DNA from: Phytopythium helicoides
Taxonomy: Eukaryota > Oomycota > Peronosporomycetes > Pythiales > Pythiaceae
Reading direction: 5' to 3'
Length of the DNA stretch: 64,000 nucleotides
Assembly (NCBI GenBank): GCA_024867545.1
Contig: JANFNE010000035.1
Span: forward strand, 1 to 64,000
Part shown: positions 1-48,426 of the stretch, one piece after another
Layout: every line of letters begins with the position of its first letter
Numbering within the stretch: position 1 is the first letter of the stretch
Notes under the pieces: model-generated
Databases searched by the model: none
What the model was told of the DNA's origin: nothing
What the model saw: the letters and a program-made list of their open reading frames with translations, nothing else
Translations under genes and position numbers: made by a program

Positions 1-200
1 AAACCCTAAACCCTAAACCCTAAACCCTAAACCCTAAACCCTAAACCCTAAACCCTAAACCCTAAACCCTAAACCCTAAACCCTAAACCCTAAACCCTAA
101 ACCCTAAACCCTAAACCCTAAACCCTAAACCCTAAACCCTAAACCCTAAACCCTAAACCCTAAACCCTAAACCCTAAACCCTAAACCCTACTAAACCCTA
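1..200. repeat. Telomere, CCCTAAA array
   Basis: About 28 tandem copies of the 7-mer AAACCCT (TTTAGGG on the other strand). The array is perfect to about base 190 and ends in an imperfect copy. TTTAGGG-type telomeres occur in oomycetes and plants. The C-rich strand read 5' to 3' at base 1 means this is the left physical end of a chromosome. Confidence 0.98.
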
Positions 201-8961: not shown

Positions 8962-11900
8962 ATGGAAGATATCCTGAAGGCTGCGAGTGATGGCGACCTC
9001 GCAGCAGTGGAGAAGGCGCTTCAGGGTGGAGCAGACGTCAACGCCAAGGACAAAGCCGACGACACAGCGCTGATCAAGGCTGCTGAGAGAGGCGAGTTGG
9101 ATGTGGTGCGGTATCTCGTGGAGGAGAGAGGCGCGGACATCAACATCAAGGACAATGACGGCTACACTGCACTGATGTTAGCTGCTGGGAGTGGCGAATT
9201 GGATGCGGTGCGGTATCTCGTGGAGAGTGGCGCGGACATCAACATCAAGGACAATGACGGCTACACTGCACTGATGAACGCTGCTTCGAGTGGCAAGTTG
9301 GATGTGGTGCGGTATCTCGTGGAGAGTGGCGCGGACATCAACATCAAGGACAAAGCCGACGACACTGCACTGATGAAGGCTGCTTCGAGTGGCAAGTTGG
9401 ATGTGGTGCGGTATCTCGTGGAGAGTGGCGCGGACATCAACATCAAGGACAATGACGGCTACACTGCACTGATGAAGGCTGCTAGGTATGGCAAGTGGGA
9501 TGTGGTGCGGTATCTCGTAGAGGAGAGAGACGCGGACGTCAACGTCAAGGGCAATGACGGCAACACTGTGCTGATGAAGGCTGCTTCGAGTGGCAACTTG
9601 GATGTGGTGCGGTATCTCGTGGAGAGTGGCGCGGACATCAACGTCAAGGACAATGACGGCTACACTGCACTGATGAAGGCTGCTGAGAGAGGCGAGTTGG
9701 ATGTGGTGCGGTATCTCGTGGAGAGTGGCGCGGACATCAACGTCATGGACAAAGCCGACGACACTGCACTGATGGAGGCTGCTAGGTATGGCAAGTTGGA
9801 TGTGGTGCGGTATCTCGTGGAGAGTGGCGCGGACATCAACATCAAGGACAATGACGGCTACACTGCACTGATGAAGGCTGCTAGGTATGGCAAGTGGGAT
9901 GTGGTGCGGTATCTCGTAGAGGAGAGAGACGCGGACGTCAACGTCAAGGGCAATGACGGCAACACTGTGCTGATGAAGGCTGCTTCGAGTGGCAACTTGG
10001 ATGTGGTGCGGTATCTCGTGGAGGATAGAGGCGCGGACATCAACGTCAAGGACAATGACGGCTACACTGCACTGATGAAGGCTGCTGAGAGAGGCGAGTT
10101 GGATGTGGTGCGGTATCTCGTGGAGAGTGGCGCGGACATCAACGTCATGGACAAAGCCGACGACACTGCACTGATGGAGGCTGCTTCGAGTGGCAAGTTG
10201 GATGTGGTGCGGTATCTCGTGGAGAGTGGCGCGAACATCAACATCAAGAACAATGACGGCTACACTGCACTGATGAAGGCTGCTTCGAGTGGCAAGTGGG
10301 ATGTGGTGCGGTATCTCGTAGAGGAGAGAGACGCGGACGTCAACGTCAAGGACAAGTACGGCGACACTGCGATTATGTATGCTGCTTCGAGTGGCAAGTG
10401 GGATGTGGTGCGGTATCTCGTAGAGGAGAGAGACGCGGACGTCAACGTCAAGGGCAATGACGGCAACACTGCGATTATGTATGCTGCTTGGAATGGCAAG
10501 TGGGATGTGGTGCGGTATCTCGTGGAGGAGAGAGGCGCGGACATCAACGTCAAGGACAATGACGGCTACACTGCACTGATGAAGGCTGCTGAGAGAGGCG
10601 AGTTGGATGTGGTGCGGTATCTCGTGGAGAGTGGCGCGGACATCAACGTCATGGACAAAGCCGACGACACTGCACTGATGGAGGCTGCTAGGTATGGCAA
10701 GTTGGATGTGGTGCGGTATCTCGTGGAGAGTGGCGCGAACATCAACATCAAGAACAATGACGGCTACACTGCACTGATGAAGGCTGCTTCGAGTGGCAAG
10801 TGGGATGTGGTGCGGTATCTCGTAGAGGAGAGAGACGCGGACGTCAACGTCAAGGGCAATGACGGCAACACTGTGCTGATGAAGGCTGCTTCGAGTGGCA
10901 ACTTGGATGTGGTGCGGTATCTCGTGGAGGATAGAGGCGCGGACATCAACGTCAAGGACAATGACGGCTACACTGCACTGATGAAGGCTGCTGAGAGAGG
11001 CGAGTTGGATGTGGTGCGGTATCTCGTGGAGAGTGGCGCGGACATCAACGTCATGGACAAAGCCGACGACACTGCACTGATGGAGGCTGCTAGGTATGGC
11101 AAGTTGGATGTGGTGCGGTATCTCGTGGAGAGTGGCGCGAACATCAACATCAAGAACAATGACGGCTACACTGCACTGATGAAGGCTGCTTCGAGTGGCA
11201 AGTGGGATGTGGTGCGGTATCTCATGGAGAGTGGCGCGAACATCAACGTCAAGGCCAAGTACGGCTACACTGTGCTGATGAACGCTGCTTCGAGTGGCAA
11301 GTTGGATGTGGTGCGGTATCTCGTGGAGAGAGGCGCGGACATCAACATCAAGAACAATGACGGCTACACTGCACTGATGGAGGCTGCTGAGAGAGGCGAG
11401 TGGGATGTGGTGCGGTATCTCGTAGAGGAGAGAGACGCGGACGTCAACGTCAAGGACAAGTACGGCAACACTGCGATTATGTATGCTGCTAGGTATGGCA
11501 AGTGGGATGTGGTGCGGTATCTCATGGAGAGTGGCGCGGACATCAACGTCAAGGTCAAGTACGGCTACACTGTGCTGATGAACGCTGCTGAGAGTGGCAA
11601 CTTGGATGTGGTGCGGTATCTCGTGGAGAGTGGCGCGGACATCAACATCAAGGACAATGACGGCTACACTGCACTGATGAAGGCTGCTTCGAGTGGCAAG
11701 TTGGATGTGGTGCGGTATCTCGTGGAGAGTGGCGCGGACATCAACATCAAGGACAAAGCCGACGACACTGCACTGATGAAGGCTGCTTCGAGTGGCAAGT
11801 TGGATGTGGTGCGGTATCTCGTGGAGAGTGGCGCGGACATCAACATCAAGGACAATGACGGCTACACTGCACTGATGAAGGCTGCTAGGTATGGCAAGTG

Positions 11901-14900
11901 GGATGTGGTGCGGTATCTCGTAGAGGAGAGAGACGCGGACGTCAACGTCAAGGGCAATGATGGCAACACTGCGATTATGTATGCTGCTTGGAATGGCAAG
12001 TGGGATGTGGTGCGGTATCTCGTGGTGGAGAGAGGCGCGGACGTGAACATCAAGGACAATGACGGCTACACTGCACTGATGAAGGCTGCTTCGAGTGGCA
12101 AGTGGGATGTGGTGCGGTATCTCGTGGAGATAGGCGCGGACGTCAACGTCAAGGACAATGACGGCTACACTGCACTGATGAAGGCTGCTGAGAGTGGCCG
12201 CTTGGATGTGGTGCGGTATCTCGTGGAGAGTGGCGCGGACATCAACGTCAAGGATAATGACGGCAACACTGCGATTATGTATGCTGCTAGGTATGGCAAG
12301 TGGGATGTGGTACGGTATCTCATGGAGAGTGGCGCGGACATCAACGTCAAGGCCAAGTACGGCGACACTGTGCTGATGAAGGCTGCTAGGTATGGCAAGT
12401 GGGATGTGGTGCGGTATCTCATGGAGAGTGGCACGGATATCAACGTCAAGGCCAAGTACGGCTACACTGCACTGATGAAGGCTGCTAGGTATGGCAAGTT
12501 GGATGTGGTGCGGTATCTCGTGGAGAGTGGCGCGAACATCAACATCAAGAACAATGACGGCTACACTGCACTGATGAAGGCTGCTAGGTATGGCAAGTGG
12601 GATGTGGTGCGGTATCTCGTGGAGAGTGGCGCGGACATCAACATCAAGGACAATGACGGCTACACTGCACTGATGAAGGCTGCTGAGAGAGGCGAGTTGG
12701 ATGTGGTGCGGTATCTCGTGGAGAGTGGCGCGGACATCAACGTCATGGACAAAGCCGACGACACTGCACTGATGGAGGCTGCTAGGTATGGCAAGTTGGA
12801 TGTGGTGCGGTATCTCGTGGAGAGTGGCGCGAACATCAACATCAAGAACAATGACGGCTACACTGCGATTATGTATGCTGCTTGGAATGGCAAGTGGGAT
12901 GTGGTGCGGTATCTCATGGAGAGTGGCGCGGACATCAACGTCATGGCCAAGAACGGCTACACTGTGCTGATGAACGCTGCTTCGAGTGGCAAGTTGGATG
13001 TGGTGCGGTATCTCGTGGAGAGAGGCGCGGACATCAACGTCAAGAACAATGACGGCGACACTGCACTGATGGTAGCTGCTGGGAGTGGCGAATTGGATGC
13101 GGTGCGGTATCTCGTGGAGAGTGGCGCGGACATCAACGTCAAGGCCAAGTACGGCTACACTGCACTGATGAAGGCTGCTAGGTATGGCAAGTTGGATGTG
13201 GTGCGGTATCTCGTGGAGAGTGGCGCGGACATCAACATCAAGGCCAAGTACAGCTACACTGCACTGATGTTAGCTGCTGGGAGTGGCAACTTGGATGTGG
13301 TGCGGTATCTCGTGGAGAGTGGCGCGGACATCAACATCAAGGACAATGACGGCTACACTGCACTGATGAAGGCTGCTTCGAGTGGCAAGTGGGATGTGGT
13401 GCGGTATCTCGTAGAGGAGAGAGACGCGGACGTCAACGTCAAGGGCAATGACGGCAACACTGCGATTATGTATGCTGCTTGGAATGGCAAGTGGGATGTG
13501 GTGCGGTATCTCGTGGAGGAGAGAGGCGCGGACGTGAACATCATGGACAATGACGGCTACACTGCACTGATGAAGGCTGCTTCGAGTGGCAAGTGGGATG
13601 TGGTGCGGTATCTCGTGGAGATAGGCGCGGACGTCAACGTCAAGGACAATGACGGCAACACTGCGATGATGTTAGCTGCTGGGAGTGGCGAATTGGATGC
13701 GGTGCGGTATCTCGTGGAGATAGGCGCGGACGTCGACATCCAGAATACGAAAAATGAAACAGCGCTATACCAAGCAACCAAGAAGGGATACGTCGCAATT
13801 AGGAACTTCTTACTCAAGTATGTCTCATCGAGTGAAGACGTGGTGCATGGGGATTCATCTGTGGAATCACTGAAGTCGTTCTTAACATTGAGAAGCTGGG
13901 CGATCTCTCCGTTCGATATCGAACCAGTCAAACACAATGACACTAAGAGTTTCGGGGGAGAATATCGAGCGAAATGGTTGGACGCCGACGTCATCATCAA
14001 ACTGTTTGTCCAGGATGCTTCGGTTTCAACATTTGAGGATGAAGTCACTACATGGCTTCAACTACGACATCCAAACGTGATCAAGTTGTATGGAGCTTGC
14101 GATATTTATCACTCGTTCTTCGTGCTTGAGCATGCAAGCAATGGGTCGGTGGTGGAGTATCTTGCTGAGTGTAAGAAGAAAGGGGAAACACAAACGCCAT
14201 GGAAGTTATTGTGCGAAGCGGCATTGGGTCTCGCATACTTGCACGAGCGTGGAATCATCCATGGGAACTTGCAAAGCAGTACTGTGTTGGTTGGAAGCGA
14301 TGGCGTGGCGAAGTTGTCTGATTTTGGTTTGAGCATGTCATCTCGAGACGGTTCTGAAGAAGTGGTATCAAGCAGAGCGGGGTTTGGCTCAGAGCTTTGG
14401 CAGGCTCCGGAGCAGATGAAGGGTGGAAGAGCGTCGTTAGCGGGAGATATCTACTCTTTTGGTCTCTGTATTGTGGCGGCGATAACTGGACGAGAACCAT
14501 GGGGAAAATATTCTCGTTATGAAAAACCTAAGCTCGACTGGGATCCCGCGGCTGGCCCCGATTCGTGGGGTGGTCCTTCGTGGGATGATGGTCCTTTGTG
14601 GGATGATGATCCTGCTGATTTCGTCGAAAATACCACACTCCTGATATCCCAAATGTGTGCTCAAGATCCCAAGCAACGCGTACCAGCAGCAGTAGCTGTT
14701 CGACTTCTCGATAATCTCGCTGCAAAGGAAGCCAGTGATCTTCGGTCACCGTCTCAAGATGATGGTATCAAGAGTAACGTAGACAAGTACAAGGGCGGAG
14801 AACTGACTCAACTTTTAGCGACCATTCGGAATCAAATATCGTTGCAGCATTCCCAGTACGAGTTCGTGCTACATGAAATCGAAGCGATCCAGAAGCAACT

Positions 14901-16683
14901 CGCACAAGAAACCCGGTCATTGAAGCTTCTCGAGGCATATCGCTCACTCCTCGTTGACTTGGACGGTGTTCTCCAGTCAGGATCACTTGGGAACCGCGTG
15001 GTTGCGTTGTCCTCGACAAGAGTGGCTGGCAGCAACTTGACTGTATTTAAACGTCGCATTGACGAGCTGTGGATGCTGCTCGATGCCTCTCGAGTTGTTG
15101 ACGAGGAGCGAGATCGACACTGGGATATGCAGCGCAAGAATCAGCTCGAGTTATTCGTGTCGGATGTATCACAGACGGTGGCAGTTCTGAGCGAATTGGA
15201 TGACGAGGAGGAGCGGACCACCTTCATGACATTGTTGAAGTTGGAATTGGATAGTCATGCGTCTAAGTACACTGAGATTCAGCTTGAAGTGATACAGAAG
15301 GCGTACGATGATTGTTGTCAAGGCAAGTGGAAGAACGTTGTGACGACTGTTCCTGCATGGTATCTGCCGTGGCACGAGCTTGTGATCAACCGGATGGAGA
15401 AGCTCGGCGAGGGTGGATTTGGTGATGTGTATCGTGCAAAATGGCTGGACTCGGAGGTGGTTGTGAAGGAGGTGAAGAAGCTTGCATCAACTAACAGTGA
15501 CTCTTTCGCATCGACTTGGTCGCAGAGTGTGTCACAGTCTGAGCCAAAGACTGAAGTGAAGGCACCCACTGACAATGTTGAATTCCGAAAAAAGAGGGAA
15601 GAACGCCGTAAGTTGTTCGAGCAAGAAGTGAACGTCTGGTTTGGACTGAGCCACCCGCATGTGATTCGTTTGTTTGGAGCATGCCATGTTGGAACGCCGT
15701 TCTTTGCGTGTGAGTATGCTAGCGGTGGGCCGCTGGACAAATACCTGCGAGAACATCCTGAAGAGATATGGCCAAAACTCTTTGAAGCAGCACTTGGTGT
15801 ACAGTACCTGCATTCACGTGGTATTATCCATGGAGACCTCAAATGCAACAATATCATGATTGGTAACGACGGGAAGGCTAAGGTAACGGACTTTGGTCTG
15901 AGTTCGTTTGAGGAAGCGAGTGAAGGGAAGTTGAGTGGTGCGTGGCAGTGGGTGGCGCCTGAGTGCATTGAGGGTGGTGTCTCGATGATATCGGTGACGT
16001 CGGATGTGTATTCTTTGGGTATGTGCATCGTGGAGGCGCTTCGAGTGGTGGAGAAGGTTGAGGACGATGATCGTCCACCATATCCATGGTACGATGATGA
16101 CCATACTACTGTCAAGGTCAAGGTGGTCGATCGACATGAGTTGCCGTCGCGGCCTCGGTTGTGCACGGATGAGCAATGGCAGTTGGTGGAGCGAATGTGC
16201 GCTCACGACCCAGACAAACGAATCAAGATCAGCACTGTAGTGGACAAGCTTGCGATTCTTGCACGAGGCAATGTGGATTGCGATGGTGAAGAGGTTGAGC
16301 CGGAGCCGTCAAAGGAGATTACAGAAATGAAGGACCTGTCAAAGGTGATCGCTGAAATGAAGAGCCATTGCGACCAATTCTACGATAGCGCTACATCACG
16401 CAACGAGAAAATCCTGTGCCAAATTTACGCGTTGCTGTGGGAGCGACTGGCAGATCGGGCGGATGACACCGAGTTCCTTGGGTCTCTTATCAAACAAGCT
16501 CGAAAGAGTACGCTGATGCTTCAGGAGGAGAGAGGCACCGTATTCGCGTTCACGGAGGCAGCACTGCGGGGATACGCATTGCATCGCAATCTGGACAAGG
16601 TGATTGAAGCGCAGATGTGGAAGGCGGAGAAACTAGAGTGGAGAAAAAAGTGCTGGAAATTGCTGAAAAGTCAGGCAATATAG
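8962..16683 (+). CDS. Giant ankyrin-repeat protein with tandem pseudokinase and TKL kinase
   Basis: A single 2,573-residue open frame without introns. Residues about 30-1610 are ankyrin repeats of 33-34 residues (consensus DGYTALMKAA..G..DVVRYLVE.GADIN). I count 47 copies of the RYLV/RYLM motif. A first kinase-like domain follows (about 1640-1890), with Lys1680 and DFG at 1787. Its glycine loop is degenerate, and His-Gly-Asn at 1767-1769 replaces the catalytic Asp, so it is probably a pseudokinase. Residues about 1925-2130 look helical or coiled-coil. The second kinase (about 2140-2410) has GEGGFG at 2149, Lys2169, HGDLKCNN with Asp2292, and DFG at Asp2310, so all catalytic residues are present. 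Both resemble tyrosine-kinase-like (TKL) Ser/Thr kinases, which are abundant in oomycetes. No signal peptide or membrane segment is seen, so it is probably cytoplasmic. The JAK-like pairing suggests the first domain regulates the second; this is inference. Confidence 0.93.
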   Translation: MEDILKAASDGDLAAVEKALQGGADVNAKDKADDTALIKAAERGELDVVRYLVEERGADINIKDNDGYTALMLAAGSGELDAVRYLVESGADINIKDNDGYTALMNAASSGKLDVVRYLVESGADINIKDKADDTALMKAASSGKLDVVRYLVESGADINIKDNDGYTALMKAARYGKWDVVRYLVEERDADVNVKGNDGNTVLMKAASSGNLDVVRYLVESGADINVKDNDGYTALMKAAERGELDVVRYLVESGADINVMDKADDTALMEAARYGKLDVVRYLVESGADINIKDNDGYTALMKAARYGKWDVVRYLVEERDADVNVKGNDGNTVLMKAASSGNLDVVRYLVEDRGADINVKDNDGYTALMKAAERGELDVVRYLVESGADINVMDKADDTALMEAASSGKLDVVRYLVESGANINIKNNDGYTALMKAASSGKWDVVRYLVEERDADVNVKDKYGDTAIMYAASSGKWDVVRYLVEERDADVNVKGNDGNTAIMYAAWNGKWDVVRYLVEERGADINVKDNDGYTALMKAAERGELDVVRYLVESGADINVMDKADDTALMEAARYGKLDVVRYLVESGANINIKNNDGYTALMKAASSGKWDVVRYLVEERDADVNVKGNDGNTVLMKAASSGNLDVVRYLVEDRGADINVKDNDGYTALMKAAERGELDVVRYLVESGADINVMDKADDTALMEAARYGKLDVVRYLVESGANINIKNNDGYTALMKAASSGKWDVVRYLMESGANINVKAKYGYTVLMNAASSGKLDVVRYLVERGADINIKNNDGYTALMEAAERGEWDVVRYLVEERDADVNVKDKYGNTAIMYAARYGKWDVVRYLMESGADINVKVKYGYTVLMNAAESGNLDVVRYLVESGADINIKDNDGYTALMKAASSGKLDVVRYLVESGADINIKDKADDTALMKAASSGKLDVVRYLVESGADINIKDNDGYTALMKAARYGKWDVVRYLVEERDADVNVKGNDGNTAIMYAAWNGKWDVVRYLVVERGADVNIKDNDGYTALMKAASSGKWDVVRYLVEIGADVNVKDNDGYTALMKAAESGRLDVVRYLVESGADINVKDNDGNTAIMYAARYGKWDVVRYLMESGADINVKAKYGDTVLMKAARYGKWDVVRYLMESGTDINVKAKYGYTALMKAARYGKLDVVRYLVESGANINIKNNDGYTALMKAARYGKWDVVRYLVESGADINIKDNDGYTALMKAAERGELDVVRYLVESGADINVMDKADDTALMEAARYGKLDVVRYLVESGANINIKNNDGYTAIMYAAWNGKWDVVRYLMESGADINVMAKNGYTVLMNAASSGKLDVVRYLVERGADINVKNNDGDTALMVAAGSGELDAVRYLVESGADINVKAKYGYTALMKAARYGKLDVVRYLVESGADINIKAKYSYTALMLAAGSGNLDVVRYLVESGADINIKDNDGYTALMKAASSGKWDVVRYLVEERDADVNVKGNDGNTAIMYAAWNGKWDVVRYLVEERGADVNIMDNDGYTALMKAASSGKWDVVRYLVEIGADVNVKDNDGNTAMMLAAGSGELDAVRYLVEIGADVDIQNTKNETALYQATKKGYVAIRNFLLKYVSSSEDVVHGDSSVESLKSFLTLRSWAISPFDIEPVKHNDTKSFGGEYRAKWLDADVIIKLFVQDASVSTFEDEVTTWLQLRHPNVIKLYGACDIYHSFFVLEHASNGSVVEYLAECKKKGETQTPWKLLCEAALGLAYLHERGIIHGNLQSSTVLVGSDGVAKLSDFGLSMSSRDGSEEVVSSRAGFGSELWQAPEQMKGGRASLAGDIYSFGLCIVAAITGREPWGKYSRYEKPKLDWDPAAGPDSWGGPSWDDGPLWDDDPADFVENTTLLISQMCAQDPKQRVPAAVAVRLLDNLAAKEASDLRSPSQDDGIKSNVDKYKGGELTQLLATIRNQISLQHSQYEFVLHEIEAIQKQLAQETRSLKLLEAYRSLLVDLDGVLQSGSLGNRVVALSSTRVAGSNLTVFKRRIDELWMLLDASRVVDEERDRHWDMQRKNQLELFVSDVSQTVAVLSELDDEEERTTFMTLLKLELDSHASKYTEIQLEVIQKAYDDCCQGKWKNVVTTVPAWYLPWHELVINRMEKLGEGGFGDVYRAKWLDSEVVVKEVKKLASTNSDSFASTWSQSVSQSEPKTEVKAPTDNVEFRKKREERRKLFEQEVNVWFGLSHPHVIRLFGACHVGTPFFACEYASGGPLDKYLREHPEEIWPKLFEAALGVQYLHSRGIIHGDLKCNNIMIGNDGKAKVTDFGLSSFEEASEGKLSGAWQWVAPECIEGGVSMISVTSDVYSLGMCIVEALRVVEKVEDDDRPPYPWYDDDHTTVKVKVVDRHELPSRPRLCTDEQWQLVERMCAHDPDKRIKISTVVDKLAILARGNVDCDGEEVEPEPSKEITEMKDLSKVIAEMKSHCDQFYDSATSRNEKILCQIYALLWERLADRADDTEFLGSLIKQARKSTLMLQEERGTVFAFTEAALRGYALHRNLDKVIEAQMWKAEKLEWRKKCWKLLKSQAI
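9049..13770 (+). repeat. Ankyrin-coding tandem repeat with 402-bp higher-order unit
   Basis: The 99/102-bp ankyrin units are nearly identical in DNA. A four-unit block (33+33+34+34 codons = 402 bp) recurs almost unchanged, for example starting at 9660 and 10062, and at 10566 and 10968, with part again at 12660. A separate block at about 9261-9452 is repeated at about 11664-11855. This points to recent block duplication or conversion. Long antisense open frames over the array are by-products of the repeat. Confidence 0.93.
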
Positions 16684-22322: not shown

Positions 22323-23825
22323 ATGCAGCTCGTCTCAAGCCGCACCACCAGTCGAATCATGACTTATAGTACGCATTGGATCATACTGGCGATCCATCTC
22401 AATGCCTTCTTGTGGAGCTCATTCTCCACTGCAAAAACCTACTCGACCAAGTCAGGCATCCTGCCATGGGTTGATCCAGATACTCCAGACGATGATCAGA
22501 CGTACAAATCTTCACGTGGTGTGACCTGGACACTTACCATGAGCGACGAGTTCAACACCGCTGGGCGAAGCTTTGAGGCAGGAGATGACCACATCTGGGT
22601 TTCGATTGAGATGCCGGACGGCACCAATTCGGCTCTCGAGTACTTTTCGCACAACATGACCTCGACTGAGTGTGACGACGACAACACATGCTACTTCCAG
22701 ATTGAGACGAACACCGACGCGTCAAACGTCACGGTTTGGAACAACTACATGTCACCTCCAGGATACCAAGACGTCACGTTCTACTACCGCTCGGGGATGG
22801 TTCAGTCGTGGAACAAGTTCTGCTTTCAAGGTGGTGCTATTAAGGTCAAGGCTCAACTTCCCGGTGCTGTTTCCAACGAATCCGGCAACCCAGATGTCTC
22901 CACGGGGTCTACAAGTGTTCGGGCTGCAAGTATCGACTACTACCCGGTATGGCCTGGTATCTGGATAATGGGGAATCTCGGGCGTGCGTTGTACTCCGGA
23001 TCGACAAGCCGAATGTGGCCGTTCACGTACAATGAGTGTAACGAAACTGTCTTCGACTCGCAAAACCAGCGTATCAGTGCATGCGATGATGACCCGGGCC
23101 ATGGTCTCAACGCGAACCAAGGGCGTGGCGCGCCGGAGATCGATATTCTTGAAGGTGGTGGCACAGCTATCTCGACGTCGATGCAGGTTGCACCAGGAAT
23201 GCCCGACAATTTTAGGATGATTGCGGACGCGACGTCGCTGGCGGCCTCTTGCTTCTACACCTACACGTGTACAACGAAAGGCGCCAACAACCCCGACGTC
23301 CCGACGGCCTACTATTCGAGCCTCCGAGGGCACAAGTCGTGGTACCAGGGCCTTCGTTACGGCGCCAATAACCTCTGCGATGTTGATGCGGACGACATTC
23401 AAGCGTACGCAACCATCAATGCTTCACTCACAAAAGGCATCACGGAAAACGCGTGCACGATGGCGCTCTGTCCAGCGTCCTACGACGTCAATGGTGATCT
23501 TGACTATATCAACAGGACCACCGACCGCTGGGGTATCAACGCCAATGGCACGTGCTTCCCAATGCAAAACGCATACATGGGAGCGTACTTGTGCAGTGCT
23601 GGCAATACAGCTTCCGAGTGCGGGACCTCGAGTGGGTCTACCAGTTCTGGATCTGAATTCTCCTACCAGATGGATGCCATCTCGGCAAACTGGGAAGTGC
23701 ACATGGGAGCATACCTCGACTGGGTCGTCTACACAGTTGAGTGGGTTACGGGCAACGATGGGTACATCCGGTGGGAAGTCGAAGGCCAACCTGTCTTTGA
23801 GATCCCTGCAGTGGCTTTAATAAAT

Positions 23826-23935
23826 TGGATTATTTCCTGGCAGTGGTTTCGAAGGGCCACGAAGGAAATTGCCGTTTCCAACCAACGGAGTAGAAGTAGG
23901 AACAGTCATATTAGATTTTGCTTGCAAGAGCAAAC
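23826..23935 (+). repeat. Split direct repeat A1
   Basis: 110 bp from TGGATTATTTCC to AGAGCAAAC at the 5' end of the element. It appears identical to A2 at 29600-29709. It begins immediately after the SKN1 codon AAT. Confidence 0.93.
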
Positions 23936-23984
23936 AACCTCGAAGCGACCCTTCACAGCAGCCTCCCTTCTCGGACCTCTCAAG

Positions 23985-25934
23985 ATGAACTATGTGTTCT
24001 GTAGTGCTGGGGCCTTCGGCGCTCCGGGTCATGCTTATGGTAAAGGCAAGATAGTGGGAGGTCGTGGGGCTCGTGTACGCCTCGAGCGACTGCAAACTGG
24101 GCGTTGGTCTGAGGTCGCCACGAGTACCGCGACGTTTGAACGGGCAGGGGTGAAGAATCGCTTGGTTTCCGAGGAAGAAGCACTGAGCGGGATCGGAACT
24201 TACGTCGGCAGCTGCATTTGTGTTCCGAGACTACGGGCTCGTGCAGCTCGTGCCTGGGACTATGGCGTTGTTACGGGATATGAGTGGACTGGGCCATCCG
24301 GGTTTTTAGTGGTCGACTTTGGAGAGCAAACGGAGCGGGTGGTCTATGATGAAGCTAACCTTCAAGAGTTAGCTGTGGAGACTTATGCATTACGTCCCTG
24401 TTATCGACGCCCTGTTGTACAAGTCATGCCGGCCGAAATGCGTACTGCTCACCAGCTTATGTTCGACACCTTCCATGGCCTCGCTGCAGGCTCGCCAGCT
24501 GAGCGCAATTCGTCGATTGTCAGGCATACCGCTGGCGTCACAGCTGTACTTGATGAGTCTTTTCGAGTCCCACTTTATGAGCTAACCAGTGCTGAAGTTG
24601 TCTCCCTTCCGATTCGGCATATTCTAGACTTTGTTTTATACAAGGAAAGCAATCTTGAACCCCCTCAAGGAGTCAGCTTAGGAGATACGATCTTTGATAT
24701 TCCAGGAGAAGATGCCCCGCAGCCGGAATTGGCTTCATCGGCGGTGGAAGGTCCACTAATCAGAGCAACAGAGCTAAGCGACTCAGATAGTGAAGGAGAT
24801 GCTGTTGAGCCGGTATCAGCCGCTGCCGTCGAGGCTCCGGCGCCTGTGAGTTCTCGTAAGCGAAGAAAGCGGTCGGAAGATGTCCATCTGTCCTCGCCGT
24901 CTACCGAATTTCCTGTTAGAGAGAGTTTACTGGATCAGTTCGAGGCGTTTCTTAGTCACAAGCGTGCTGCTACCGCTCAAACCGTACCGTACAGACCTGA
25001 TGAAAGCAGTAGTGGAGACGGCAAGACCCAATTTCGGCCATCAGCACTGCAGAAATCAATCCACAACACGATCGTGAACGGTAAGTACTCTGAGTTAAGC
25101 CCTCATCAGCTACTTGAAACATTTCAGGTCGATCTGGATATGCTTGCGTTCATGCCACACCCTGCTGTCCTTCGCGGATTATACTCTTGGGAGTTTGGGC
25201 GCGGATTGTCAGTGATGCACTTCGCTCGTATCACGCGCGGTGCACGTAACGAAGCCTCCCAATATGTTAATCTCCTTGATTTTTCTCTAAAGAACCGATT
25301 CCCAACTACAAAAGCTTCTGCGACAATGGGTGATATCGTTGAAGCCCTCGAAATCCTGGCTCGAATTGCTCAACTAATCTTTAAACCGTTCGTTGAAGAG
25401 ATTGTAGCATCGTCGATTGAGTGCGTCAGGGAGTTAACGGATGATTTCTGTGCTATACGCATGTTGGAGCACGGTGAGGTGGTGCGTTGGATAGATTCAC
25501 GCCTGGCCGACGTGCGAGCGTACCTCTCGAAAGGCGATCTGTCATCAGTCGACACTGTTTTGGATGATTTCAAGGCTAACAGTGCGCCACGACTCCGGTT
25601 AGCAAGCGTGCTGTCGGAGCTGCAAGTCGATGAAAAACTTTCGGTGGCTAGAAAACAATATGCATCACGGGTCGTTGAAGGTCGCACACTCCCGTCTGGA
25701 CGGAAGCAGCAAGAACGGAGACCTGTGCCAAAACACGTGCGGGATGCGTTGCCCATGCTCAATGGTAAGCAGCTTTGCATGCGTTCCATTTCCAATCTGC
25801 GTTGTCACAGCAACAGTGATGGCTGTTGGAACTCGGAGCGAGCCCATTTCCGACCTGCACGGCTTTCTCGCGTGGTTCGAACGTTTATAGAACAAAATTA
25901 CGACGGCCTCCGCGATGAATTCAAAGATTTATGA
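23985..25934 (+). CDS. gag: DIRS-like element Gag-like protein
   Basis: 649 residues from ATG 23985, the first ATG of the frame inside the element after repeat A1. The frame also stays open back into SKN1. It has a basic nuclear-localisation-like SSRKRRKR run and an acidic Ser/Asp/Glu stretch in the middle. A helical region with LDMLAFMPHPAVLRGLYSWEFG follows, and there is a C-terminal Cys/His cluster (LCMRSISNLRCHSNSDGCW, then RAHF) that may bind nucleic acid. This fits the structural protein of DIRS-type elements. It ends at UGA 25932-25934. The same frame is open beyond the stop into pol. Confidence 0.8.
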   Translation: MNYVFCSAGAFGAPGHAYGKGKIVGGRGARVRLERLQTGRWSEVATSTATFERAGVKNRLVSEEEALSGIGTYVGSCICVPRLRARAARAWDYGVVTGYEWTGPSGFLVVDFGEQTERVVYDEANLQELAVETYALRPCYRRPVVQVMPAEMRTAHQLMFDTFHGLAAGSPAERNSSIVRHTAGVTAVLDESFRVPLYELTSAEVVSLPIRHILDFVLYKESNLEPPQGVSLGDTIFDIPGEDAPQPELASSAVEGPLIRATELSDSDSEGDAVEPVSAAAVEAPAPVSSRKRRKRSEDVHLSSPSTEFPVRESLLDQFEAFLSHKRAATAQTVPYRPDESSSGDGKTQFRPSALQKSIHNTIVNGKYSELSPHQLLETFQVDLDMLAFMPHPAVLRGLYSWEFGRGLSVMHFARITRGARNEASQYVNLLDFSLKNRFPTTKASATMGDIVEALEILARIAQLIFKPFVEEIVASSIECVRELTDDFCAIRMLEHGEVVRWIDSRLADVRAYLSKGDLSSVDTVLDDFKANSAPRLRLASVLSELQVDEKLSVARKQYASRVVEGRTLPSGRKQQERRPVPKHVRDALPMLNGKQLCMRSISNLRCHSNSDGCWNSERAHFRPARLSRVVRTFIEQNYDGLRDEFKDL

Positions 25935-28526
25935 CTCGCGGGGTCCCCACGTAGCTCAAAGAGCAAGTGCAAAAGTTATGCAACGAAAGAGCTGAAGGTC
26001 GAGCCTATCGTCGTTCTACAAGAGTCACCCAGCAACATATTTGAGGCTCAGCATAATGCCGAGGCTTCCAGTCGTGTTCTATCGGGCTCAACACAGTCTA
26101 CGGTTGAAAGGGTACTCACGACAGATAACTGTGCGATCAGCAGCACCAGTAACAAGATAAGCAACTCTAAACCACTACAACTCCGGGCAAGTGCCCTTGG
26201 CAACCATTTGGCACACGCCAATGGTTGCTCGACTCATTTAGCAAGTGCTGATGAGAGAGTCCACGGCGACTCAGACGCCGAGGCAAGTGCCTCCGGCAGC
26301 CAATTGGCAAGTGCCACTGATAGACTAACGCGTTTAGCAAGTGCTGAGGAGAACGCACAACCACGACGGGTGGTTTGTGGAAAATGTGGTCGTACCAACA
26401 TGGATCACAATTGTCAAGCCCAATTATCATCTCCCGGAGTCGTTCTAGCTTCGGCAGGGCGAACAACGGCCAGCAAGCTCACTGCAGACACAACAGAGGA
26501 ATATACTCGTCTGTTGCGGGGCAATCTGGAAGCTACAATGAGAGCCCAGAAGGCTCTGTGGGAGTTCTACACAGTACGAGCCACGCATTCTCTAGCAGAG
26601 GCATTCTCAAAAGTCGATGTCTTAGTACCAGAGGAGTCACCGCATTCAGAACTGCGGGGTGGAAAATCAGTCTTTTTGCTCGATCGAGCCAAGCAACACA
26701 CGTTTAGTACCTTCATTCGCCGCTCCAGGATGGCACTACCCGAGTTTGTAAGGCTGCTGAGGGGTGAGACACCAACAGACCCACGTCCGAATAAAGCTCT
26801 GGAAATCCCTTCATGGTTACCGTGCTGGAGGTCGTATCGCTATCGGGACGTATGGGAAGGCATTGTTCGGGAAGGCGTACGCCCGCGCTGGAAAAAGCCT
26901 TTTCAATACCAGAATGAACGCCCGAAAAACCATGGATCTGCCCTTCGAGCGTTGAATATTATAGTGAAGAATATCCGAAAAGGCCAAGATTTGAACCAGT
27001 ATTTGGTCCTTGACATCGATCTTCTAGATGTTCTTGAAGGTGTGACGTGCAGTCCATTCGGTGCAGTACAAAAAGGTCAATTGGATATCGCTGTGGAGGC
27101 TAGGGTCATACACGACTTATCGTTTCCTCCAGGAGGATCAGTAAACGATCACACCGCTGAAACCGCGAAAGTGCAAGTCTCGTATGATGGTGCTCAGGCT
27201 ATAGCCCAGCGAATCCTGGAGTGTCGCTCTTCTTATCCCGGCAGAGCCACCAAGATGATGACTGGTGATGTTCATGGTGCTTTCCGGCATGTTCCATTAC
27301 ACGCGGACCATGTTGGCCGATTTGCAGGCTCGTTTCCAGAGTTAGGAGTGCTTGTAATTGACTTGGCGTGCCCATTTGGGTGGACAGAATCTCCGGCCTG
27401 TTATTGGGTTGCAGGGTGCGCGATCAATCATGTCTATTCAAACACAGCCCCTTCATGGCCCCTTCAACCATTAGCCGCAGTTCAATGTTTTGACGGGAAG
27501 GTATGGTGCGACGATCATGTTCCTGTCGAAGTTGACGTAGGTACCCGGCTGATGGAGGCCGATTTAGCCCTGCGTAGAGCAATGACTACAATCTTAGGTC
27601 CTGCTGCTTGCAACGAAGAAAAATTTTCCAGCTGGTTCACGGAGGGCAAGGCATTAGGTTTGATCTGGAACACGTCCAGCCGCACAGTATCAATTCCTTC
27701 AGACAAAGTTGAAAAGGCCCGCACAAGAATTCGCTCAATGTTGGCCAAGCGCAACACAACACGTAACGAGTTACAAAAACTTCTGGGCAGCCTTCGACAT
27801 GTCACCACATGTGTACGAGCCGCGGCGCCGTTTTTCCAACGCGTATCATCGCTACTACGAAGCGCACCGCGTTTTGGCGGGGTTGCAATCACGCCAGGTT
27901 GCCGGGACGATTTACACTGGTTTGAAGCAATCATTCAACTTGCCCAGCTACAATCTATCCCATTAGTGCGTTTCACAGCAAGTCAAGGCCCCACTATTCA
28001 TATTTACATGGACGCAAGTGACTATGGATTGTGCGCGCTCTTTCCAGCCACAAGAGAATATTTGCAAGTCAAATTCACTGCTGCAGAACACGATGCTATC
28101 CGAAACACATCCGATACAAGCTTTGGGATCAACATCCGCGAATTAATGAGTGCGGTGTTTGCGAGCATTGTGTGGGGAGAGCAGTGGGAGCCATCTTCGC
28201 ACGGACACCAGCACCACGTCAGGTTCTGGATAGATAACATGTCTGCAGTAGCGTGGAATAACCGCCAATTCACGCCGAACCCTCATGGTCAGCTATTACT
28301 CCGCCTCCTGGCGCTGCAAGAAGTTCGTCACAATTTCTATTCATCGGCAGCGCACATTGCGGGTGCTACCAATACCATGGCGGACGCTGGCAGCCGGGTG
28401 TGGCAGTGTCGAGAATTGGCTAACAAATTTGCTAACATGTCGCGTGGATGGACACAGGCGGAGGTCCCAAACAGGTTCAGGAATCTCTCGCAGTTATGGG
28501 AACATTGTTACGTCGCGCAGCTGTAG
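25935..28526 (+). CDS. pol: DIRS-like reverse transcriptase / RNase H (in frame with gag after a UGA)
   Basis: The frame is open from the codon after the gag UGA to TAG at 28526, giving 863 residues. The N-terminal part repeats an A/LASA motif and then has a zinc knuckle (CGKCGRTNMDHNC). The reverse transcriptase has an RVIHDLSFPPGGSVND stretch, DVHGAFRHVPL, LACPFGWTESP and the catalytic WCDDH (the YxDD equivalent). RNase H has IYMDASDYG, INIREL, FWIDNMSAV and HIAGATNTMADAGSR, so the acidic residues are present. No methyltransferase domain is visible. It reverse-transcribes the element RNA. No ATG lies between the UGA and the zinc knuckle; the first in-frame ATG is inside the knuckle at about 26400. 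Expression as a Gag-Pol readthrough product is therefore the simplest reading. Confidence 0.88.
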   Translation, partial: LAGSPRSSKSKCKSYATKELKVEPIVVLQESPSNIFEAQHNAEASSRVLSGSTQSTVERVLTTDNCAISSTSNKISNSKPLQLRASALGNHLAHANGCSTHLASADERVHGDSDAEASASGSQLASATDRLTRLASAEENAQPRRVVCGKCGRTNMDHNCQAQLSSPGVVLASAGRTTASKLTADTTEEYTRLLRGNLEATMRAQKALWEFYTVRATHSLAEAFSKVDVLVPEESPHSELRGGKSVFLLDRAKQHTFSTFIRRSRMALPEFVRLLRGETPTDPRPNKALEIPSWLPCWRSYRYRDVWEGIVREGVRPRWKKPFQYQNERPKNHGSALRALNIIVKNIRKGQDLNQYLVLDIDLLDVLEGVTCSPFGAVQKGQLDIAVEARVIHDLSFPPGGSVNDHTAETAKVQVSYDGAQAIAQRILECRSSYPGRATKMMTGDVHGAFRHVPLHADHVGRFAGSFPELGVLVIDLACPFGWTESPACYWVAGCAINHVYSNTAPSWPLQPLAAVQCFDGKVWCDDHVPVEVDVGTRLMEADLALRRAMTTILGPAACNEEKFSSWFTEGKALGLIWNTSSRTVSIPSDKVEKARTRIRSMLAKRNTTRNELQKLLGSLRHVTTCVRAAAPFFQRVSSLLRSAPRFGGVAITPGCRDDLHWFEAIIQLAQLQSIPLVRFTASQGPTIHIYMDASDYGLCALFPATREYLQVKFTAAEHDAIRNTSDTSFGINIRELMSAVFASIVWGEQWEPSSHGHQHHVRFWIDNMSAVAWNNRQFTPNPHGQLLLRLLALQEVRHNFYSSAAHIAGATNTMADAGSRVWQCRELANKFANMSRGWTQAEVPNRFRNLSQLWEHCYVAQL

Positions 28527-29488
28527 CCGACTCTACTCGTGCTCATTATCGTCGAGCTTGGCAACAGTGGACCACTTGGTGCAAATTTATGGAGTGCGAA
28601 CCATGGTTGTCCAGAACTGCTGTGAGTCACAACACCTCCCAGCTTGGAGCATTCGCTGTTTACCTCTGGAAGTTCGGGATGAACCAAAAGTCAGTAGGTA
28701 ACACTCACTCTACGATCCGCGGCAAGCTAGCTGCGGTTGCGTGGTACCACCGGAACTTTTTGGGATTCGAACCTGCATTTGATACCAGTCACGAGCTATT
28801 ACTTCGAGGAATTCGTCGTATGTCAGATCCAGTAACAAAGCAGCAACCGCTGACTACCCACCTGCTGCTCGCCATTCATGCCAGCTTGGACCTCGGCTCG
28901 CCGCGAAATCAGCTTCTGTGGGGTGGTTTACTGCTTGGCTACTTTTTCCTGCTTAGGCGATCAGAATATCTGCAGATCGACGGAAAACATCATGATTACA
29001 TACTGCAATTGGGTGACATCTCTTTTCGATCAAAGAATGAGCAGTCTTGTCTACCTCGCAAAGCCCACGTGGTTGGCATCCTGTTGAGGGGCGCCAAAAA
29101 CAACCAATACGGACGGCAAGAGCATCGATTCCATCATAAGTCCGGCCACGAAATTCTGTGTCCAATCAAAGCCGCTCGATGGATTCTCAAAGGAGCGTCA
29201 GCATTCGGTACAATTCGCAGTGCGCCAGCACTCTCCACTGGAAGTGCCAGTGTTATCTCTGCTCGAGAAGTGTCAATGCTGATTAAGGATGCTGCTAAAA
29301 GATTGGGTTTAAACCCTGACCGTTTTTCAACTCATTCAGTTCGAATTGGTGGAGCCACTGCATTGCTGAACGCGGGGGCAGATCGCCTCATAATCAAACT
29401 ACTGGGCCGCTGGCTCTCCAACTCTTTCGAAGACTACCCAGTACTCTCCTCAGCTGGTACAGCTAACCTGTCGAGGCTGATGTGCTAA
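28448..29488 (+). CDS. DIRS-like tyrosine recombinase
   Basis: 346 residues from ATG 28448, overlapping the end of pol by 79 nt in another frame. The N-terminal SAM-like core-binding region has STRAHYRRAWQQWTTWCKF. The catalytic set is visible: Arg in LLRRSEYL, His-x-x-Arg in HSVRIGGATALLNAG, Trp in LGRWLSNS, and the nucleophile Tyr in FEDYPV. It would integrate the circular DNA copy by site-specific strand exchange in place of an integrase, which explains the lack of target duplication. Translation probably starts by reinitiation or from a separate message. Confidence 0.92.
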   Translation: MDTGGGPKQVQESLAVMGTLLRRAAVADSTRAHYRRAWQQWTTWCKFMECEPWLSRTAVSHNTSQLGAFAVYLWKFGMNQKSVGNTHSTIRGKLAAVAWYHRNFLGFEPAFDTSHELLLRGIRRMSDPVTKQQPLTTHLLLAIHASLDLGSPRNQLLWGGLLLGYFFLLRRSEYLQIDGKHHDYILQLGDISFRSKNEQSCLPRKAHVVGILLRGAKNNQYGRQEHRFHHKSGHEILCPIKAARWILKGASAFGTIRSAPALSTGSASVISAREVSMLIKDAAKRLGLNPDRFSTHSVRIGGATALLNAGADRLIIKLLGRWLSNSFEDYPVLSSAGTANLSRLMC

Positions 29489-29532: not shown

Positions 29533-29776
29533 CCGCCTCGCCACGCCCTAATGACGCAATACAATGCGAGGTTTTCCCCCACGCAGTGATAGTTGGAAAT
29601 GGATTATTTCCTGGCAGTGGTTTCGAAGGGCCACGAAGGAAATTGCCGTTTCCAACCAACGGAGTAGAAGTAGGAACAGTCATATTAGATTTTGCTTGCA
29701 AGAGCAAACCCGCCTCGCCACGCCCTAATGACGCAATACAATGCGAGGTTTTCCCCCACGCAGTGATAGTTGGAAA
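29533..29776 (+). repeat. Split direct repeats B1-A2-B2
   Basis: B1 (29533-29599, 67 bp, CCGCCTCGCC..GTTGGAAA) is followed directly by A2 (29600-29709, 110 bp) and B2 (29710-29776, identical to B1). Recombination between these repeats would generate a circular form in which the A and B parts are adjacent, as in the internal B1-A2 junction. Confidence 0.93.
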
Positions 29777-30532
29777 CCACCACAAGACACGGCGCAGACG
29801 AATCCCAAGAAGATCATGATCGAAGAGCCTATGTATATTATCTTCAGTGTCGCGCTGTCCTCGACGTGGGGTTCGACGCCCCCGAACGCAGGCAGCGATT
29901 GCTATGGTGATGGTTCGAGCTCGCAGTCGAACGCGATTTGTAACTCGTTCCCCATGTACATGAAGATCGACTATATTCGTCTGTACCAGGACACCTCGGA
30001 CAGCACTAATATGTCAATCGGTTGCGATCCGTCGACACATCCAACAGCACAGTGGATCGAGGACCACATCGATGACTACACCGACTCGGACAACCCGGAC
30101 ACAGAAGTGTCAGGAATGGGCTTCTGCACAACCAACGATGACTGTACGATCGACGGCAGGGTCATTACTGGTACTTGCAGCAACGGCCGTTGCAAGTGCA
30201 AATCGTCATCTTGGAAGGGTCCGCGCTGTACAATTGCTGGAAGTTCGGCAACGTCTACAGACAGCAGCAACGATACCGAGCAAGAAGGATCCGAGTCGTA
30301 TGGACCATCGATGGCGGTGTCTGCATCGCTAGCCGGCATCACGATTGTGTCGACCATTACTGCTATGTATATCTCGTCTCTATGGGGTCGCAGAAATGAT
30401 GCAGAGCTTCGCAAGAAAATGCTTCTGCAGCAACTTCAACAGCAGAACGAGCAGGCCAAGGTGGGGGCTGTGTCTTCAAGCGACATTGGACTCAAGCTTC
30501 CAGAGGATAACTACAGCACTAACTTCATTTAA

Positions 30533-31048: not shown

Positions 31049-31103
31049 GGGAAAATCCCAAAACGTGACTCACTTCAGAAATTGTCCCAAAAGGTGACTC
31101 GAT
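31049..31103 (+). repeat. MULE left terminal inverted repeat
   Basis: 55 bp starting GGGAAAATCCC, complementary to the right-end repeats with one difference (ACGTGACTC against AGGTGACTC). The adjacent target duplication TTATTTTTA is at 31040-31048. Confidence 0.93.
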
Positions 31104-31147
31104 TCTCTAAAAAGAGAGCTAATCCTAATTTTAAGATTGCACGCCTT

Positions 31148-32959
31148 ATGGCGGAGATGGTTGCGCTGCAGCACACAAATTGTCAGGCAGACTCCTCATT
31201 CTCCACTCGGACCATGCAGAGCGACGCGATAAGCTCTCTGCGCCAACATCAGTGGCCCACAGGCAGAGATGCGGTCTGTGCTATCAAGGACATGGCGCTG
31301 ACTGAGGGTAAGCAGGTACATGTTGAAAAACGAGGAGGAACATTCCGGCGTTTGGTTTGTTCAAGCGCTTCTCCATGCCGCTGGTTCGTCAATCTTTCTC
31401 GCACGAAGCGCAAGCAAGCTCCTAATCACTGGCATGTCACTACTGCTCATCTAAACCACTTCAACTGCACAAGCACAGCTAAGCCAACTGAAAACCAATT
31501 GGCAGCAACATCAGTCCTACGATCGGCAGTGATTGCTGACCCAAATGCAGCAGCCTCTACGCTTAAGAGTCAACTTCAACTTGAGACGGGGCTTCTCTGT
31601 GGTCGAAGCAAGCTTTACAGAGCAAAGGCAAAGATACTAGAGGAGGTTTTCTCGGACAATCTGCAGTCCATCGAGCTGCTACCTAGTTTTCTATTGAAAT
31701 TTGCTGAGCTGAATCATGGTGTATTCACAGAAGTTGGGAAAGATGAGAGTGGAAACTTCGAGAGAGCAATCATAGTACTTGATCCAGCATGGTTTACTGG
31801 GGGCCTCCGCTTGTTTGGTGTCGATGCCGCTCATATGAAACACAACAAGTACAATGGCGTTCAAATTGTTCTAGTTGCTCGTGATGGAAACTTACAGAAT
31901 CGTGTGGCAGCAGTTGCCCTAGCTGCTATTGAGGACCACGCTACGTATCATTGGTTCTTCAGTGCTGCTATTAACCATGGGTTTCCATTGCGCAGCTACC
32001 CGGTCTTTAGTGACCGTCATGTCGGCATTGTGTCAGCAGCTACAGAGCTGCAAGTACGAAGCATGTACTGTACTCGCCATTTGCTAGGGAACATGCGTGC
32101 AGACAAGAAAGTAAAGCTGGCTGTTGGCCATGAAGCTATAGTGTGGCGTGCACAAGCGGCTGAGTCATCGACACAGTATGATGCTGCAATTAGTGAGTTG
32201 ACTGCTGTAAATGCACACGCTGGTGCTTACCTTCGAGCAATTGAGCCGGTCAAGTGGGCTTTGTATCCCCACCTGAAATCTACGCCGCTTTACGGGTGGA
32301 GAACCACCAATTTTGTGGAGAGTGAGCAAGCAAGAGCTCTTCGATTAAGACCCAGAATGATGCTACCCTTTGAGTTCTTTTGCTCATACACAAAGATAAT
32401 GATGGCTGAGGCATGTAAAGTGATGGAGCAAGGTGCAAAATGGAACAAAGACGGACGTCTGGTGACTCAGCGCGCTGAATCCAAATTTCAGAGAGAGCTA
32501 CGTGATATGACGAACTACAACGTGTTGTTTAGCTCGAGTTTCATCGGATACGTAAGCAGAAATGGACATCCTAACAAACAGCGACGTGTGGACATTGATC
32601 CCGGCGAGTGTAGCTGCAAGATGTGGCTCCAGCACCGCATCACTTGCCGTCACCTACTCGCCGCACTAAACGCTCGTGGTCGACTCAACGAGGGTCTTAA
32701 TCTAGTCGGTTGCGAGTACACTGTAGCACAGTATACTCGCACCCAACGCCCGATTGAGCTCCCCTTGTCAGACGCACTCGAGCCAGATCATTCTCTTCGC
32801 CCTGCTGTGTTTCGGCGTCAAGCAGGGCGTCCGAGAAAGCGTCGAATTCGCTCGCGGGGAGAGCGAAGCGATGGGGGGAGTGGCGTCAAGAGATACAAAT
32901 GCAGCAAGTGTGGCCATGCCGATGGTCACAACGCCAGAACGTGTCGCGCGGTGCTGTAG
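31148..32959 (+). CDS. MULE transposase
   Basis: 603 residues from ATG 31148, the first ATG of the frame; the frame opens slightly earlier without an ATG. It catalyses cut-and-paste transposition by a DDE/RNase-H fold. Visible features are an N-terminal DNA-binding-like region with Cys/His residues, LFGVDAAHMKHNKYNG (first Asp), YPVFSDRHVGI (second Asp), and a SWIM zinc finger CSCKMWLQHRITCRHLL. A basic GRPRKRRIRSR stretch and a C-terminal zinc knuckle KCSKCGHADGHNARTC follow. These are typical of MuDR/MULE transposases, and length and order are normal. No stop or frameshift is seen. Confidence 0.93.
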   Translation: MAEMVALQHTNCQADSSFSTRTMQSDAISSLRQHQWPTGRDAVCAIKDMALTEGKQVHVEKRGGTFRRLVCSSASPCRWFVNLSRTKRKQAPNHWHVTTAHLNHFNCTSTAKPTENQLAATSVLRSAVIADPNAAASTLKSQLQLETGLLCGRSKLYRAKAKILEEVFSDNLQSIELLPSFLLKFAELNHGVFTEVGKDESGNFERAIIVLDPAWFTGGLRLFGVDAAHMKHNKYNGVQIVLVARDGNLQNRVAAVALAAIEDHATYHWFFSAAINHGFPLRSYPVFSDRHVGIVSAATELQVRSMYCTRHLLGNMRADKKVKLAVGHEAIVWRAQAAESSTQYDAAISELTAVNAHAGAYLRAIEPVKWALYPHLKSTPLYGWRTTNFVESEQARALRLRPRMMLPFEFFCSYTKIMMAEACKVMEQGAKWNKDGRLVTQRAESKFQRELRDMTNYNVLFSSSFIGYVSRNGHPNKQRRVDIDPGECSCKMWLQHRITCRHLLAALNARGRLNEGLNLVGCEYTVAQYTRTQRPIELPLSDALEPDHSLRPAVFRRQAGRPRKRRIRSRGERSDGGSGVKRYKCSKCGHADGHNARTCRAVL

Positions 32960-48304: not shown

Positions 48305-48426
48305 CCTTTGTCATTCGCATTTTCACCTCCTAGCGGGGTACAAACCAGATAGTGGTGAACTTCCATTTTGTTGAGGGACGTATAGCTCCAAACGGTTTGA
48401 TAATGGACATATGACGTGTTCATAGC

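Follow-up and report, generated by a model that had tools for sequence, protein, structure and literature searches.

Closest described systems

No intracellular receptor for immunity or self-recognition is, to our knowledge, established in oomycetes, although no search was aimed at this point. The animal proteins TNNI3K, ILK and RIPK4 combine ankyrin repeats with a tyrosine kinase-like (TKL) kinase or pseudokinase and have one kinase domain and few repeats, and the Janus kinases (JAKs) are tyrosine kinases with FERM-SH2 and a short linker between JH2 and JH1. Here, we analyzed a 64,000-nucleotide stretch of the oomycete Phytopythium helicoides (GenBank assembly GCA_024867545.1, contig JANFNE010000035.1, positions 1 to 64,000; "the window" throughout). 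In it, a single uninterrupted open frame on the forward strand (8962-16683) encodes a 2573-aa protein with, in this order, 47 ankyrin repeats, a degenerate kinase domain (K1), a helical linker, a catalytically complete kinase domain (K2) and a helical tail. It resembles the animal proteins in joining ankyrin repeats to a TKL (pseudo)kinase and the JAKs (JH2-JH1) in its pseudokinase-kinase tandem, and differs from the former in its two kinase domains and 47 repeats. We read it as a putative intracellular sensor kinase belonging to a large family of oomycete TKLs, in which an ankyrin recognition array would be coupled via a regulatory pseudokinase to a kinase, and we give this reading a probability of about 55%. 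The larger finding is the family itself, which is multi-copy, telomere-side in the window's clade, equipped with a re-assorting ankyrin array and inactivated in K1 by varied routes.

In the Phytophthora infestans kinome (PMC3019232), oomycete-specific TKLs form Oomycete Subfamily 1, 19 of the 32 inactive kinases are TKLs, PITG_06288 carries 15 ankyrin repeats ahead of its kinase, and three proteins have two tandem kinase domains; we liken these proteins to the present one by description only. Alternative inactivation routes, 47-repeat arrays, telomere-side clusters and an ankyrin-pseudokinase-kinase class are not described in the available text of that paper, which was the nearest account to such a class found in the open-access literature, where no description of the class itself was found.

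Plant tandem kinase-pseudokinases (TKPs), such as Yr15/WTK1 and RPG1, likewise pair a kinase with a pseudokinase, are multigene and have lost the same pseudokinase positions, D166, D184 and G52 being the least conserved (PMC6170490). According to the same text, WTK1 and RPG1 are mainly cytoplasmic, and TKPs are mostly of plant receptor-kinase origin, the 92 proteins of that paper having no other conserved domain and no ankyrin array. Membership of the plant TKPs was rejected for the window protein, which has 47 ankyrin repeats and best-matching named relatives that are oomycete. In JAKs, the JH2 domain has HGN in place of HRD (PMC6287396). Both JAKs and plant tandem kinases serve as analogies only. 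Fungal NOD-like receptors (NLRs) with highly conserved ankyrin, WD or TPR repeats show near-identical units, variability on the concave face and large families (PMC4986451). The window protein is like them in its near-identical repeats, variable target-facing positions and large gene family; in contrast, the fungal NLRs have a NOD domain and strain-based positive selection (PMC4986451), whereas here there is no NOD, the output would be a kinase pair and the repeats have a mean pairwise identity of only 0.73.

Protein architecture

A first-pass annotation of the window, made from its letters alone, had placed a pseudokinase-kinase tandem at 13879-16300, a range that takes in both kinases, although the protein itself spans the whole open frame. 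All residues that it named are in place (Lys1680, HGN 1767-1769 and DFG 1787 in K1; GEGGFG 2149, Lys2169, Asp2292 and DFG 2310 in K2; Table 1), and its count of 47 ankyrin repeats was borne out by Tandem Repeats Finder (99-base unit, 47.1 copies, 9026-13731) and by 47 stretches matching Pfam Ank. Allowing no more than one mismatch, a 17-base backbone piece of the repeat was located in 46 places, compared with 0 expected from shuffles. The family PK_Tyr_Ser-Thr matched two stretches (E 2.4e-70 for the whole protein). Other Pfam rows (e.g. MurD-like_N, 57 bits) fall within the repeats, with no stretch passing alone, and none of the families FERM, SH2, NACHT and NB-ARC was found in the protein at E<=0.001. 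No signal peptide or membrane helix was apparent by hydropathy (top 19-residue Kyte-Doolittle mean 1.57), and secretion was rejected, the N-terminus not being signal-like by this measure.

A multi-copy oomycete family

The first-pass annotation knew of no described oomycete protein with exactly this build and suggested a search of oomycete proteomes; in searches of proteins and of the own genome, the build proved to be common in this genome and in Phytophthora. When the genome of P. helicoides (49.06 Mb) was searched with the kinase part, at least 52 matches were obtained at about 48 places (window included, split matches merged by judgement), these counts being lower bounds. The matches were 41-87% identical, besides the self-match and one 35% fragment. 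A protein search matched 374 proteins; among the 120 listed, 29 align over 90% or more of the 944-aa kinase part, with identities of 37-56%. The closest named relatives among the matches listed are oomycete. Named relatives include Phytophthora cinnamomi, ramorum, fragariae, nicotianae and lilii, Nothophytophthora and Globisporangium, their automatic annotations reading, for example, serine/threonine kinase, TNNI3K, LRRK2 or hypothetical protein. By its collinear K1-linker-K2-tail order and its similarity along the whole length, the window protein belongs to an oomycete ankyrin-K1-K2 TKL family.

Open frames of the family range from 605 to 4032 aa, so that array length seems strongly different between copies. 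The longest frame among the matches listed lies on the same contig (L030, C30:399064-401709) and has repeats of another type, which are also much alike. With a profile of the window's repeats, five or more repeats were recognized in 33 of 37 loci, the counts being partial for L009-L038, for which only 1.5 kb was taken ahead of the kinases. In L012, repeats and kinases lie in different frames.

Kinase residues across the family

Catalytic residues were compared in 89 tandem frames with exactly K1 followed by K2, of which 35 came from the own genome (window included) and 54 from elsewhere. At the roughly 48 family places in the genome, 37 loci were examined for motifs; 35 of these were K1-K2 in one frame and two (L023, L044) were split. 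The 54 other frames were counted among those drawn from ids P0002-P0048 and P0120-P0180 (108 of 233 listed kinase matches). Both catalytic Asp are kept by K2 in 88 of the 89 frames (35/35 own, 53/54 other) and by K1 in a single one (P0010, without glycine loop); at least one of them is replaced in K1 of 86 frames, and two frames have an alignment gap. All three loop glycines are kept in K1 of 0/35 own and 1/54 other frames, the VAIK Lys in 33/35 and 48/54, and the alpha-C Glu in 34/35 and 50/54, while K2 keeps the VAIK Lys in 35/35 and 51/54. As judged from these alignments, K1 lacks the residues for normal phosphotransfer in nearly all compared relatives, and K2 retains them. In the window protein, K1 has HGN, has lost the glycine loop and has Thr in place of the catalytic-loop Asn (HGNLQSST), while Lys1680, the alpha-C Glu and DFG are retained; the glycine loop, Lys, Glu, HRD Asp, Asn and DFG Asp of its K2 are all present.

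The route of inactivation differs between copies. Of the 35 own K1 domains, 15 have lost only the HRD Asp, 17 only the DFG Asp and three both; many relatives retain HGD and have lost the DFG Asp. On a K2 tree (88 of the 89 rows), in which many forks are weakly supported and two branches are long, the K1 state changed at least 19 times by parsimony. The window falls in a starred 16-row group, two rows of which are from elsewhere (P0120, P0121), and all members of this group have lost the HRD Asp and kept the DFG Asp. The residue counts and the tree together indicate that glycine-loop loss is common to the family and that the identity of the lost Asp varies. The first-pass interpretation is partly supported. 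The pairing that it described stands as an oomycete-type TKL tandem of a pseudokinase followed by a complete kinase, the inactivation of K1 being conserved as a state and the K1 domain constrained (see below). HGN together with DFG is found in some clades only: the first-domain changes expected in orthologues are general as an inactivated state, and the exact HGN pattern appears specific to the window's clade and some others. We infer an ancestral pseudokinase whose leftover catalytic residues drift.

K1 might instead be a slow regulator kinase with weak or unusual catalysis, such as has been reported for the JH2 of JAK2. The window's K1 would suit this idea in retaining Lys1680, the alpha-C Glu and DFG. 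Since no own K1 retains all three loop glycines, the window's K1 has other residues for both the catalytic Asp and the Asn, and at least one catalytic Asp is replaced in nearly all frames, we regard it as very improbable.

In other multi-kinase proteins (P0022-P0048), many without ankyrin, the earlier kinases are often degenerate and the last or near-last one intact, with P0022 and P0027 as exceptions.

Selection on the kinase part

Among 16 close members, the median ratio of nonsynonymous to synonymous substitution rates (dN/dS; pairs with dS 0.05-1, 78 to 88 of 120) was 0.32 in K1 and 0.24 in K2, and it was higher in the linker (0.43) and in the tail (0.40). All pairs of K1 and of K2 stayed at or below 1, and one linker pair was at ratio 1 (L015-L019). 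Judged by these ratios, K1 is under purifying selection, and this constraint suggests that it is probably retained for a role beyond normal catalysis.

Such a role could be that of a decoy or docking surface and not of an allosteric switch, in which case outside factors or substrates would bind K1, and K2 or another protein would respond. The decoy idea is known for plant tandem kinases. Here, K1 diverges faster than K2, and the positions varying in it are the least conserved ones of the plant TKPs (PMC6170490). However, its Lys and Glu are mostly retained, and variation is freer in the array, which makes recognition more likely to reside in the array than in K1. We therefore consider a decoy K1 unlikely.

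The ankyrin array

The 47 repeats (36 distinct) have a mean pairwise identity of 0.876 in nucleotides and 0.73 in protein. Nine unit positions are invariant in protein (7, 12, 13, 16, 19 and 21-24), and the most variable ones are 2, 4, 6, 11, 14, 15 and 17. At eight repeat columns, which we take to be the positions randomized in designed-ankyrin libraries, mean entropy was 1.25 bits versus 0.67 overall, and only 0.15% of random sets were as high (P 0.0015); this paratope set, which includes an insertion column, comes from background on designed ankyrins and was picked after the repeats had been seen. Surface positions are randomized in designed ankyrins according to the designed ankyrin repeat protein (DARPin) paper. 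By these measures, the repeat backbone is near-fixed and its variation is concentrated where designed ankyrins face their targets.

The repeats draw on 23 different front pieces and 12 back pieces, which are joined in 29 combinations. Fronts and backs are associated (mutual information 2.60 versus 1.97 in shuffles), as expected from copying of repeat blocks, and 3 of 7 recurring fronts are paired with more than one back. Offset self-comparison of the array gave matches of more than 100 aa at 85% identity. No exact repeat unit was common to the window array and its paralogues among 12 arrays compared, most of which were only partly covered. This pattern of pieces fits a history of block duplication with some shuffling.

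Telomere-side position

Counted from the telomere at which the contig begins, no other open frame of 200 aa or more precedes the gene. An APC5 gene in its neighbourhood matches an unnamed protein at 54% and Phytophthora at about 40%. For the 13 closest members, window included, the distance to a contig end is 12-86 kb, with a median of 36 kb; among 30 distant members the median is 146 kb (p 1.5e-6, only approximate because members are clustered). This test covered 46 places (13 close, 3 intermediate and 30 far), with two on C61 and C73, contigs lacking a length value, left out. Beside close members, at least two contig ends, on C30 and C8, are true telomeres. Assemblies break at repeat families, so the clustering at contig ends may be partly technical. 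HET-domain genes of Neurospora, some of which serve self-recognition, are likewise found near telomeres (PMC10684091).

Close to the telomere, at 1759-1880, the window contains a 54-base inverted repeat (94%) followed by a short telomere-like piece.

Proposed function

If the protein is a sensor kinase, the ankyrin array would bind a partner, K1 would relay or hold back the signal through contacts made with K2 or with the helical linker, as its constraint and the analogy with JAKs and TKPs suggest, and K2, with its intact residues, would phosphorylate a downstream substrate. Repeat pieces may be duplicated and to some extent shuffled, which would alter the array, so that copies could differ in their binding targets. 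An immune or self-recognition role for the family is attractive but unproven. A more far-reaching and tentative proposal, which we think rather doubtful, is an oomycete innate recognition system of tens of receptors, telomere-side in the window's clade, whose ankyrin arrays would be a natural counterpart of designed-ankyrin libraries, re-assorted from few repeat pieces while the backbone stays fixed. They would detect changing partners, self/nonself or microbial, and signal through a relay of a dead and a live kinase instead of an NLR. A large family with a fast-changing ankyrin array and a pseudokinase-kinase pair is a concrete candidate for an oomycete recognition receptor. The 35 tandem frames examined in one genome also form a natural series: inactivation of one kinase has taken different routes beside an intact partner, which can help to tell the structural and catalytic roles of pseudokinases apart.

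Several points weigh against a sensor kinase. Loss of catalytic residues is not proof of inactivity, nor is their retention proof of activity, and a key K2 residue is lost or not visible in 3 of the 54 other frames (P0020, gap; P0150, Arg for Lys; P0158, several). Splits, frame shifts or truncations affect several copies (L012, L019, L023, L044), and the family may thus be in partial decay. Ordinary constraint on ankyrin repeats would also make target-facing positions variable. When events were counted per column, 12 of 58 in the window's repeats were synonymous (0.207, versus a neutral value of 0.257; P 0.24); for six arrays pooled, the share was 0.268 versus 0.255, with L016 by itself at P 0.005. 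Positive selection on the repeats is accordingly unsupported: a pairwise pN/pS of 2.3 looked strong but is misleading, because each copied variant is counted many times, and the event counts gave no significant excess for the window.

A synonymous share at the neutral value would also agree with an ordinary signalling scaffold kinase without recognition role, its expansion and homogeneity driven by neutral telomere-side dynamics (slippage and unequal exchange), to which the clustering of the close clade at contig ends and the broken copies may likewise point. This we judge quite unlikely, given that the 47-repeat frame is intact, that nine unit positions never vary in protein and that the same genes show constraint in their kinase parts. 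Among nine close members, the synonymous share was 0.419 in K1 and 0.478 in K2, both different from the window's repeats (Fisher p 0.0029 and 0.00013); the difference was weaker for the tail (p 0.044) and not significant for the linker (p 0.063).

Structural model, linker and tail

The structure prediction suggested in the first-pass annotation was made with AlphaFold for K1-linker-K2-tail (mean predicted local distance difference test, pLDDT, 81.6; predicted template modelling score, pTM, 0.85). The best Foldseek match of the whole model was full-length JAK 8ewy, with a template modelling (TM) score of 0.24 (model) and 0.22 (target) and a root-mean-square deviation of 21.3 Å. At these values the JAK arrangement is not common to the window protein, and JAK homology was rejected, FERM and SH2 also not being found. 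The "JAK-like logic" first proposed is thus kept as an analogy, as the modelled arrangement, with a helical domain of ~180-200 aa between the kinases, is not shared. The Foldseek and VIA lists of the whole model were dominated by ordinary kinases, and the absence of other folds there is uninformative.

Linker and tail, when aligned with hhalign, gave a probability of 32-39% (E 0.0003-0.0005) as possible copies of one domain. The structure match 6ka4 and one HeLo match prompted the idea of a HeLo/MLKL-type bundle in the linker, which would make the protein a receptor that causes cell death or acts on membranes. HeLo matches were found in 4 of 35 family linkers, the best of 18.4 bits being below the curated cut-off of 23.2, neither the HeLo nor the MLKL_N profile matched the window's linker, and further checks gave no support. 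We therefore consider the idea very improbable.

The MLKL_N profile had 11 matches in the own genome, 4 of them above cut-off (C82:30333, C12:900345 and 925851, C9:181868). At C35:67-100 kb, four 480-aa MLKL_N frames below cut-off are spread over 33 kb. By position, the MLKL_N matches lie outside the ankyrin-K1-K2 family.

Features of the window

Table 1. Coordinates of the telomere and of the parts of the ankyrin-K1-K2 gene in the window
Feature	Position	Strand	Remark
Telomere	1-190		AAACCCT, 27 perfect units from the contig's first base
Whole gene	8962-16683	+	One open frame, 2573 aa
Cap-like stretch ahead of ankyrin repeats	8962-9045	+	
47 ankyrin repeats	9046-13740	+	aa 29-1593; each 33 or 34 aa, 36 distinct; a degenerate repeat follows
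K1 pseudokinase domain	13909-14736	+	~aa 1650-1925; limits estimated (model and alignment)
K1 Lys1680	13999-14001	+	VAIK-type, retained
K1 HGN 1767-1769	14260-14268	+	Replaces HRD
K1 DFG 1787-1789	14320-14328	+	Retained
Helical linker domain	14794-15336	+	~aa 1945-2125; without Pfam family
K2 kinase domain	15388-16251	+	aa 2143-2430; every catalytic residue present
K2 glycine loop GEGGFG	15406-15423	+	aa 2149
K2 Lys2169	15466-15468	+	
K2 HGD 2290-2292	15829-15837	+	Catalytic Asp (Asp2292)
K2 DFG 2310-2312	15889-15897	+	
C-terminal helical tail	16279-16680	+	~aa 2440-2573; without Pfam family

Further into the window, a SKN1/KRE6 beta-glucan synthesis gene is present in two same-strand parts (22323-25934 and 29741-30532), perhaps an interrupted gene, and between them lies a weak match to the phage integrase family (28448-29488), below cut-off. 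An open frame at 31082-32959 has a SWIM zinc finger, which occurs in some DNA transposases. At 39749-50136, two purple-acid-phosphatase genes (43802-45442, reverse strand; 46652-48304, forward strand) are located between two sugar transporters, both on the reverse strand.
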